From an uncultured Gammaproteobacteria bacterium (lineage in GTDB: Bacteria > Pseudomonadota > Gammaproteobacteria > Nitrosococcales > Methylophagaceae): a DNA stretch of 64,000 bases. The stretch is taken from assembly GCA_905479075.1 (NCBI GenBank), contig CAJQLA010000005.1, forward strand, positions 62,001-126,000. The letters run 5' to 3'. This document shows, piece after piece, positions 28,277-30,104 of the stretch. The notes beneath the pieces were generated by a model that was not told the origin of the DNA, made no database searches, and saw nothing but the letters and a program-made list of their open reading frames with translations. Position 1 is the first letter of the stretch, and each line of letters opens with the position of its first letter. Position numbers and translations under genes: made by a program.

Positions 28277-28693
28277 ATGAATAGAAAAACATCCTTTGTT
28301 ATTGTTATGCTCACGCTATTTTTATATATGAAATCAGCATTTGCACTTACCCAATTACCACTCCCTACAGAACCCATTTATTTTGAACCACCAGTGGTTC
28401 ATGCTAGTGAAGAATATGAACAATTGAGTTGTGTCGAGCTGGATAATTCAATTGGTTTTTTACAACCATATAGATATAGTTACAAACCTAATTTTTATGA
28501 AGATGAAGCAAACAAAGTCGCTGCTTTATTAGTCACGGTAGATAGTGTTCCGATAGTCGAAGGTTGGCTAGGCTTAGCCTATCTAGGGTATTCAGCCTTA
28601 TTGGAAGAAAAAGAGCAACGACGCGTTTTAGCAGTCAATCAGCAAGTATCTATGCTTCAACGACTCAAGGCAAAAAAGCACTGCTTTGAGTAA
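28277..28693 (+). CDS. Small secreted protein of unknown function
   Basis: I do not recognise a family. The 138-residue product has a clear signal peptide (MNRKTSFVIVMLTLFLYMKSAFA, cleavage after residue 23). A mature part of about 115 residues follows, with two cysteines (C52 and C136) that could form one disulfide. A hydrophobic stretch near 88-105 (LLVTVDSVPIVEGWLGLAYLG) may insert in a membrane or pack in a core. It sits 44 bp after the Lon-like protease gene and 114 bp before the WYEAN-repeat gene, with no strong terminator on either side. A shared transcript is possible but unproven. Confidence 0.75.
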   Translation: MNRKTSFVIVMLTLFLYMKSAFALTQLPLPTEPIYFEPPVVHASEEYEQLSCVELDNSIGFLQPYRYSYKPNFYEDEANKVAALLVTVDSVPIVEGWLGLAYLGYSALLEEKEQRRVLAVNQQVSMLQRLKAKKHCFE

Positions 28694-28734: not shown

Positions 28735-28798
28735 TTGAGCCGAGGACTTTAAGTGATGTACTATCAAGCTACGAGTGATATACGTACTCGAGGGGAGG
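28735..28798 (+). promoter_or_regulatory. Leader of the WYEAN-repeat gene: candidate promoter, hairpin and strong ribosome-binding site
   Basis: TTGAGC (28735-28740) and TACTAT (28759-28764), 18 bp apart, form a possible promoter. An inverted repeat CGAGT/ACTCG (28772-28776 and 28786-28790) follows. AGGGGAGG at 28791-28798 is a near-perfect Shine-Dalgarno sequence nine bases before the ATG at 28808. This choice makes 28808, not the in-frame GTG at 28775 or ATG at 28799, the likely start. Confidence 0.45.
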
Positions 28799-28807
28799 AT
28801 GGTCGTT

Positions 28808-29938
28808 ATGAATACAACAATAGACTTGAATAAACAGTGGTTTGATATTAAGAAAGAGCGGGTTACCAAAGGCAAAAAAAAATGGTATCAGGCTAATCTT
28901 AAATCCACTCAGGCACCTGAATCTACAACGCCAAGGATAGATAGCAATGATAATATCGAACAGGTAATACCTTGGTACGAGGCAAATATGACAAAACATT
29001 TAGATATAAAGAAAAAATGGTATGAAGCCAATTTAAAGGCGGCTGTTACATCTGTAAGGGCAAACCGGCAAAAATGGTATGAAGCTAACTTGAAAGATAA
29101 CGACAGTGATAAAACACCATGGTATGAAGCGAATACGGCTCCGTATTCAGAAGTTAAACAAAAGTGGTATCAAGCTAATCTAGAAAAGGCGCGTGAAAAC
29201 CAGAGTAAATGGTATCAAGCAAATCTAGATAATACGCCTACTGAAACGCATTGGTATGAGATCAGCAATGATAATGTCAATGAGGTTAAAAAACATTGGT
29301 ATGAAGCGAATTTAGAGACTGCACGGAAAAGTCGTAAAACTAAACCATGGTATGCAGCTAATATTGCTGTGGACCCTCATGCAGATCTAAAGAAAAAATG
29401 GTATGAGGCTAATATCGCGCTTGTTAAATCTAAACAAACTAAGAGTAAATGGTATGAAGCCAATACTCAAACTGCCCGTGCTTCCCAAAAAAACTGGTTT
29501 GAAGCATCAAAAGAAGATGTGACACCTTCTGAAACACCTTGGTATGAAGCCAATATACAACAGCATGTTGAGACTAAGAAAAAATGGTACGAAGCAAACC
29601 TAGAGGCTGCGCGGACATCGGTTAGAGAAAATAGGCAGAAGTGGTATGAAGCAAATATAGAAAATACCGATACAAGTGATGTCAAGCCTTGGTACGAAGC
29701 GAATATAAATGCTGATCCAACAGTTGATATTAAACAGAAGTGGTATGAGGCTAACTTAGAGACTGCAAGGCAGTCTCGTAAAAATAAACCATGGTATGAA
29801 GCTAATATCGCTGTAGATCCACATGCTGATGTTAAGCAAAAATGGTATGAAGCTAATATGAAGTTGGCAAGAACAAAAAATATCAAGAAAAAATGGCATG
29901 AAGCCAATGCTAAAGTGGTGAGAGATAAGCAAAAATAA
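28808..29938 (+). CDS. WYEAN-repeat protein, unknown function
   Basis: I recognise no family. The 376-residue product has no signal peptide or membrane helix, so it is probably cytoplasmic. It consists almost entirely of boxes with consensus [K/P]-W-Y-E-A-N-[L/I]. Tryptophans sit at 11, 26, 56, 71, 90, 105, 120, 135, 149, 164, 181, 198, 215, 230, 245, 260, 279, 295, 312, 329, 346 and 363, mostly 15 or 17 residues apart. Fourteen boxes read exactly WYEAN; others are WYQAN, WYAAN, WYEIS, WFEAS or WHEAN. The spacers are rich in Lys, Arg, Glu, Asn and Ala. Box codons vary synonymously (tat/tac, gaa/gag, gca/gcc/gct/gcg), which indicates selection on the protein. It is flanked by a strong Shine-Dalgarno sequence and a strong terminator. 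A multivalent binding scaffold is one inference; no function is assigned. Confidence 0.85.
   Translation: MNTTIDLNKQWFDIKKERVTKGKKKWYQANLKSTQAPESTTPRIDSNDNIEQVIPWYEANMTKHLDIKKKWYEANLKAAVTSVRANRQKWYEANLKDNDSDKTPWYEANTAPYSEVKQKWYQANLEKARENQSKWYQANLDNTPTETHWYEISNDNVNEVKKHWYEANLETARKSRKTKPWYAANIAVDPHADLKKKWYEANIALVKSKQTKSKWYEANTQTARASQKNWFEASKEDVTPSETPWYEANIQQHVETKKKWYEANLEAARTSVRENRQKWYEANIENTDTSDVKPWYEANINADPTVDIKQKWYEANLETARQSRKNKPWYEANIAVDPHADVKQKWYEANMKLARTKNIKKKWHEANAKVVRDKQK
28883..29908 (+). repeat. Coding tandem repeat array (about 45-51 bp period)
   Basis: Twenty-one WYxAN-type boxes recur every 42-57 bp inside the gene. Larger internal duplications are visible: codons 68-97 match 257-286 at 24 of 30 residues, and codons 171-202 match 319-350 at 27 of 32 residues. 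The array probably grew by duplication of multi-box blocks. The DNA copies have diverged at third positions. Confidence 0.8.
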
Positions 29939-29974
29939 TAATACTATTATGTAGTTATTAAATTAGCATATAAG

Positions 29975-30010
29975 ATAGCTGCAACCAGCGAAGGTTGCAG
30001 CTATTTTTTA
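29975..30010 (+). terminator. Rho-independent terminator after the WYEAN-repeat gene
   Basis: A perfect 12 bp stem (ATAGCTGCAACC at 29975-29986 with GGTTGCAGCTAT at 29993-30004), a 6-base loop and a T-run directly after it lie 37 bp behind the stop codon. This is one of the strongest terminators in the window. It separates the repeat gene from carbonic anhydrase. Confidence 0.92.
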
Positions 30011-30104
30011 TGTAGAATAGGAAAAGTCATTCTTTAAAGTAAAGGCTTTAAAACAGATAAATAAATTATAATCAGAAAAATATTAGGCGGGAGAACAATT
30101 TTTT

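Follow-up and report, generated by a model that had tools for sequence, protein, structure and literature searches.

Linker proteins that cluster Rubisco are among the closest described systems to the protein analysed here. In EPYC1, CsLinker and PYCO1, helical motifs follow one another in tandem with flexible segments between them, and the KWSP motif of the diatom linker PYCO1 is a precedent for a Trp-centred, helical, oligomerising sticker (PMC10288592). FLIPPer, a search for such linkers, looks for structured elements that are 20-120 residues apart (PMC11570498). The window, i.e. the whole 64,000-nucleotide stretch of DNA that was analysed, encodes a protein of similar layout: it carries a W-Y-E-A-N box again and again, and its predicted helices start 33-61 residues apart, within the FLIPPer range. 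The features of the gene are collected in Table 1.

Table 1. Features of the WYEAN-repeat gene and its surroundings (positions in the window).
Feature	Position	Strand	Basis
Promoter-like element: TTGAGC, 18-nt spacer, TACTATC	28735..28765	+	conserved; function inferred
Ribosome-binding site, GGGGAGGA	28792..28799	+	sequence
WYEAN-repeat protein gene, 376 aa plus stop	28808..29938	+	ORF, coordinates, length, orthologues
N-terminal lead, residues 1-55; conserved start, first boxes partly degenerate here	28808..28972	+	alignments
Superunit 1, residues 56-244, begins WYEANMTKHLDIKKKWYEANL	28973..29539	+	repeat step, conserved columns
Superunit 2, residues 245-376; absent or partial in short orthologues (202-267 aa)	29540..29935	+	
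Intrinsic terminator: 13-bp stem, 6-nt loop, T run	29974..30010	+	folding, hairpin script

The WYEAN repeat is confirmed as a real feature of the product, a basic (pI 9.4), cysteine-free protein with 22 tryptophans, 21 of them inside W[YFH]xx[NS] boxes, and 19 WY pairs. The pattern W[YFH][EQA][AI][NS] fits 21 boxes, WY[EQA]AN fits 18 and exact WYEAN fits 14, so the count of about 21 given in an earlier note on this DNA was right, as were its reading frame, coordinates and length. The steps from Trp to Trp are 14-19 residues (15-19 in that note), with one exception, a 30-residue gap (residues 26-56) in which, according to the alignment, the relatives have an extra box that is degenerate in the window copy. 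The 18 observed occurrences of WYxAN compare with a maximum of one (mean 0.013) in 10,000 shuffles of the same composition. The orthologues, most of which start with M-[ST]-x-T-[IM]-[DE], support the ATG downstream of GGGGAGGA as the start codon; the alternative in-frame starts at 28799 and 28775 have no such support. Neither a signal peptide nor a membrane helix was seen when the sequence (MNTTIDLNKQWFD...) was inspected by eye, i.e. with no predictor.

That the protein has no recognisable family, as the earlier note held, is borne out by the searches. There was no match above the curated cut-off in Pfam for the protein or its orthologues (the best scattered E value, 1.6e-4, belongs to unrelated families, in at most 9 out of 41 members), nor in NCBIfam, which was run with the window protein alone; PHROGs and PDB contained no significant relative, a plasmid collection gave no match, and the best match in a phage collection was at chance level (E 0.2). 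In the literature searched we found no paper that mentions the protein itself or its motif as a protein motif. Thus no known domain family came to light, and there are homologues in which the boxes are conserved. In the host's family, Methylophagaceae, a profile search recovered orthologues in 35 out of the 37 genomes that are at least 90% complete, in 3 of 4 genera; it did not find the protein in G031 or in G029, whose genome measures 1.1 Mb. In a class-wide sample of 274 gammaproteobacterial genomes the protein was found only in three members of the family, with none in the remaining 271. A pattern-based scan across 84,980 species, with tblastn as confirmation, yielded 47 loci that synteny places in Methylophagaceae, and no orthologue outside this family. 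Two loci, L045 and G320:C8 (M. muralis-like), have a frame that is broken about three quarters along, with the rest in another frame, which may be a frameshift, a sequencing error or early decay.

The boxes are set in a larger unit of about 190 residues. Long forms contain this superunit twice, with a step of approximately 183-192 residues, and in the window the second copy is 66% identical to the first over 131 residues, while short orthologues (202-267 residues) have one superunit, in some cases plus a partial second copy. The number of boxes differs by lineage, from 10 to 23 in most complete forms. In three loci (L025, L026 and L029) the halves share 79-82% identity, i.e. they are more alike than they are to their counterparts in other species, which indicates that superunits were repeatedly duplicated or homogenised by gene conversion with the boxes staying fixed. 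All orthologues are free of cysteine and basic (pI 8.7-9.8, near 9.4 in nearly all), with a net charge of +2 to +32. An AlphaFold2 model of the window protein (41 sequences) shows separate helices (approximately 69%), low-confidence linkers and no tertiary fold (pTM 0.22, mean pLDDT 65, up to 87 in blocks); its main helices, eight in number and about 19-43 residues long, begin at residues 4, 56, 115, 159, 192, 245, 306 and 340. The model of a short orthologue (24 sequences) gives the same picture of a string of helices without packing (pTM 0.24).

Codon alignments of orthologues separate the boxes sharply from the rest. Box positions are 86-100% identical with pN of 0.000-0.066, as compared to 49-96% identity and pN of 0.018-0.325 in the spacers, and the pS of the boxes (0.47-0.88) is about equal to that of the spacers; synonymous sites are near saturation. 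Between M. aminisulfidivorans (L041) and Methylophaga sp. SAT92 (L039), for instance, the box residues are 100% identical at a box pS of 0.81. Within the gene, too, alanine codons vary (GCT 8, GCA 5, GCC 4, GCG 3). Judging from these alignments, the amino acids and not the DNA are under constraint in the boxes, and the earlier claim that selection acts on the protein holds; synonymous codons vary freely both within the gene and between species. The description of the spacers as simple charged stretches is not supported, since some of their segments are conserved at specific positions and most of their length is predicted to be helical: cross-genus alignments contain invariant spacer columns (H64, K68 and R87 among them), and TEKHWYE and DPHAD recur at corresponding positions across genera. 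On the strength of these conserved segments the protein is, by its sequence pattern, an ordered repeat protein and not a series of boxes amid arbitrary filler.

The upstream region is conserved in one element. The promoter-like sequence (family consensus [CG]TTGT-N15-T-N2-TG-TA[ACG]TATC-[AG]) lies 5' of 44 out of 45 WYEAN genes, mostly 36-49 nt upstream of the start codon, with a constant step of 24 nt from TTGT to TAnTATC. It has an unusual -10 sequence, TA[ACG]TATC, and is kept across the family, whereas the remaining intergenic DNA diverges. Where found, the exact pattern occurs about once per genome, and 20 of its 21 matches are at the WYEAN gene. The invariant spacing and the near-uniqueness suggest gene-specific control; an alternative-sigma regulon was considered and rejected, as the exact pattern marks essentially this gene alone. 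Downstream, folding of positions 29960-30015 gave -28.9 kcal/mol (z = -8.1) for the hairpin region, although a simple terminator scanner did not list it. Strong hairpins are also present after several orthologues, but among 45 of them the test detected a terminator-like hairpin in only 22, some of these weak, and a reversed-sequence control also scored at some loci. With a promoter of its own and, in the window, a terminator, the gene is probably a separate transcription unit, a conclusion that is well supported for the window, and operon structure consequently indicates no client. Codon usage (CAI 0.65, z -0.9 relative to the expectation for this protein) gave no sign of very high expression.

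The gene order, which is less informative than it may seem, is coq7 - lonC - SP138 - WYEAN - beta-carbonic anhydrase - bamE - fur - recN. This order and the high identity of the flanking Coq7, Fur and RecN across the WYEAN loci place the host in Methylophagaceae. At many loci lonC is absent or displaced, and in at least one (L009) a metallo-beta-lactamase-fold hydrolase lies between WYEAN and carbonic anhydrase. The carbonic anhydrase is downstream at most loci, and it is missing at L022, L040, L046 and L061. G029, a complete-looking, streamlined relative, has a coq7-fur interval (L098, 5712-8483) without lonC, SP138 and the WYEAN gene that retains carbonic anhydrase and a bamE-like gene. SP138, a secreted protein of 138 residues (28277-28693), is found about 100 bp before WYEAN almost everywhere. 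Two of its cysteines (C52, C136) are invariant, PIYFEPP is a conserved segment and its end is KHCFE. SP138 has no match in Pfam or NCBIfam, but distant homologues exist in other Gammaproteobacteria, directly after an HtpG-like gene in L084 and L086. We do not consider SP138 a diagnostic functional partner, because these distant homologues have no WYEAN gene nearby, the L065 locus keeps WYEAN but lacks SP138, and WYEAN is preceded by a promoter of its own.

A five-residue Trp-Tyr motif that is fixed about twenty times at a high amino-acid cost must bind something specific. We tentatively favour the idea that the protein is a soluble cytosolic multivalent scaffold, specific to Methylophagaceae, that gathers a partner bearing repeated binding sites into clusters; the cytosolic location, the docking role, the clustering and the nature of the partner are what we infer. 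Separate basic alpha-helices, predicted to be strung together by short flexible linkers, would each bear one to three boxes as near-identical docking sites (stickers). Exposed Trp/Tyr pairs with flanking Lys/Arg would make many weak contacts and cross-link a partner presenting a repeated, probably acidic, site, most simply a homo-oligomeric enzyme or another abundant complex, and the number of boxes would determine the valency of the resulting cluster or condensate. Multivalent docking is suggested by the combination of fixed boxes, varying copy number, separate helices and flexible joints. The scaffold is further favoured by boxes much more constrained than spacers at equally high pS, by a lineage-dependent valency of units duplicated or homogenised around fixed boxes, by the basic, cysteine-free composition of all orthologues, by two AlphaFold2 models without tertiary packing, by near-universal presence in the family and by the PYCO1 precedent. 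Against it speak the operon structure, which points to no client, and the ordinary codon usage, as linkers of abundant enzymes are usually abundant themselves. The mostly helical prediction, too, is unlike the largely disordered linkers, and low-confidence helices may be the default prediction for a repetitive Lys/Ala/Glu-rich sequence. Of the analogy to multivalent linkers drawn in the earlier note, the sticker-like layout is supported, but its Rubisco example is not. A role as linker of Rubisco or carbonic anhydrase, in the manner of pyrenoids or carboxysomes (EPYC1, CsLinker, PYCO1 or CsoS2 type), is largely refuted and highly improbable, even though beta-carbonic anhydrase adjoins WYEAN at most loci and RuBisCO_large proteins are encoded by many Methylophagaceae. 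The host genome, which is 99.99% complete, and four relatives (G003, G011, G012 and G018) have WYEAN and no RuBisCO_large match, so Rubisco cannot be the general client; moreover, the four loci named above keep WYEAN without carbonic anhydrase, G029 shows the reverse, and in the window a terminator lies between the two genes. RuBisCO_large was found in 14 out of 23 searched genomes of the host's genus (G001, G002, G004, G006-G010, G013-G015, G019-G021), the subtype being true Rubisco or Rubisco-like, although M. thiooxydans, according to its description, is a methylotroph that uses the ribulose-monophosphate cycle.

The main rival, a serious one though less probable than the scaffold, is a protein that coats or condenses nucleic acid (nucleoid-, RNA- or ssDNA-associated). 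Lys/Arg would sit on phosphates and Trp/Tyr would stack on bases, with 21 boxes spanning a long stretch of DNA or RNA. The pI near 9.4 in nearly all orthologues fits this, and so does the sole similarity found outside the family, a weak one to the basic repeat tail (RKKYYQSNKDSKKAY..., with KKWYEANKEKK) of a viral-contig protein (L068, 2647-3285) that has an N-terminal GIY-YIG domain (PF01541, E 1.3e-8). BLASTP gives 33% over 75 aa (E 2e-7, a single comparison) and hhalign 91% over 27 columns; the phage collection contained no match to the tail. The basic tail of such nucleases would plausibly contact DNA. However, the match covers a short stretch of biased composition with KWYEAN itself at its centre, and the resemblance may be convergent. 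The charge is modest and uneven, the many Glu/Asp among the boxes (WYE, DPHAD) are unusual for a coat, and there is no known nucleic-acid-binding domain. It is quite improbable that W-Y ladders pair the boxes into fibres or helical bundles and that the protein has no further client: a best hydrophobic period of about 94-96 degrees (15 residues per 4 turns) in several predicted helices, as in right-handed coiled-coil-like arrays, together with very regular boxes and the absence of cysteine, would suit such self-association, but the hydrophobic moments are no larger than in shuffled helices (z -0.2 to 1.3), the register is disrupted by breaks that contain Pro and by spacings of 17 and 19, and neither model shows packing. 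As a peripheral coat of membranes or storage granules the basic helices would lie amphipathically on an anionic surface, and lysines, interfacial Trp/Tyr, multiple helices and the lack of a transmembrane segment agree with this; it is nonetheless very unlikely given the low mean hydrophobicity of the helices and moments (0.3-0.45 per 18 residues) that are ordinary for the composition, so the moment test gave no support to amphipathic membrane helices. A chance low-complexity reading frame without function has a biased composition in its favour and nothing else; with purifying selection, family-wide conservation and a conserved promoter against it, it is refuted, and its probability is practically negligible.

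Whatever the partner, this is a strictly conserved core gene of marine, methanol-consuming methylotrophs whose family, with the DMS degrader M. thiooxydans among its members, is important ecologically, and its product belongs to no described protein family. The regular repeat and the cultured strains make the partner and the effect of box number directly testable, and hence the protein a clean natural case of bacterial multivalency. It is a long shot, drawn by analogy, that the new Trp-Tyr helical sticker organises a membraneless compartment found only in methylotrophs of this family by clustering a one-carbon enzyme, e.g. a formaldehyde-handling one; if true, this would be a bacterial analogue of the pyrenoid linkers that acts on a non-Rubisco client.

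It is instructive to compare the general features of the WYEAN protein to those of known repeat proteins. The tail of the GIY-YIG protein resembles it in that a [KR]-[KR]-[WY]-Y-x-x-N repeat, about 15 residues long, lies in a helix-prone sequence rich in Lys, but its repeats are of the KxYYxxNKEK type and the similarity is centred on the box. The WYEAN protein has neither a GIY-YIG nor another nuclease domain (GIY-YIG is absent from the window protein at E 10 and was not among the 25 of 28 families listed for the 41 orthologues), its boxes belong to a superunit, and its gene belongs to the chromosomal core of a single bacterial family. Pentapeptide-repeat proteins (PF00805) gave weak, chance-level profile matches in 4 out of 41 members (best E 0.0027), and the designed chain 5dra matches at E 0.25, in both cases probably via the A-N-L triplet; unlike them, the WYEAN protein has no five-residue periodicity (A(D/N)LXX does not recur every five residues, the box spacing being 14-19) and is predicted to be alpha-helical, not a beta-helix. 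With EPYC1, CsLinker and PYCO1 it shares tandem helical motifs on flexible joints, as predicted, and with PYCO1 a putative Trp-containing sticker. It differs in having about 21 boxes as opposed to five or six stickers and approximately 69% predicted helix as opposed to large disorder, and in being bacterial, with a host that has no RuBisCO_large match; in the PDB searches no sequence relation was found. We file the protein as a new, undescribed family that adds one more form to the multivalent helical repeat proteins already known, and not as a new kind of system. With the client absent and no homology found, it is not a member of the pyrenoid linkers, but it would work like one if the scaffold reading is right.
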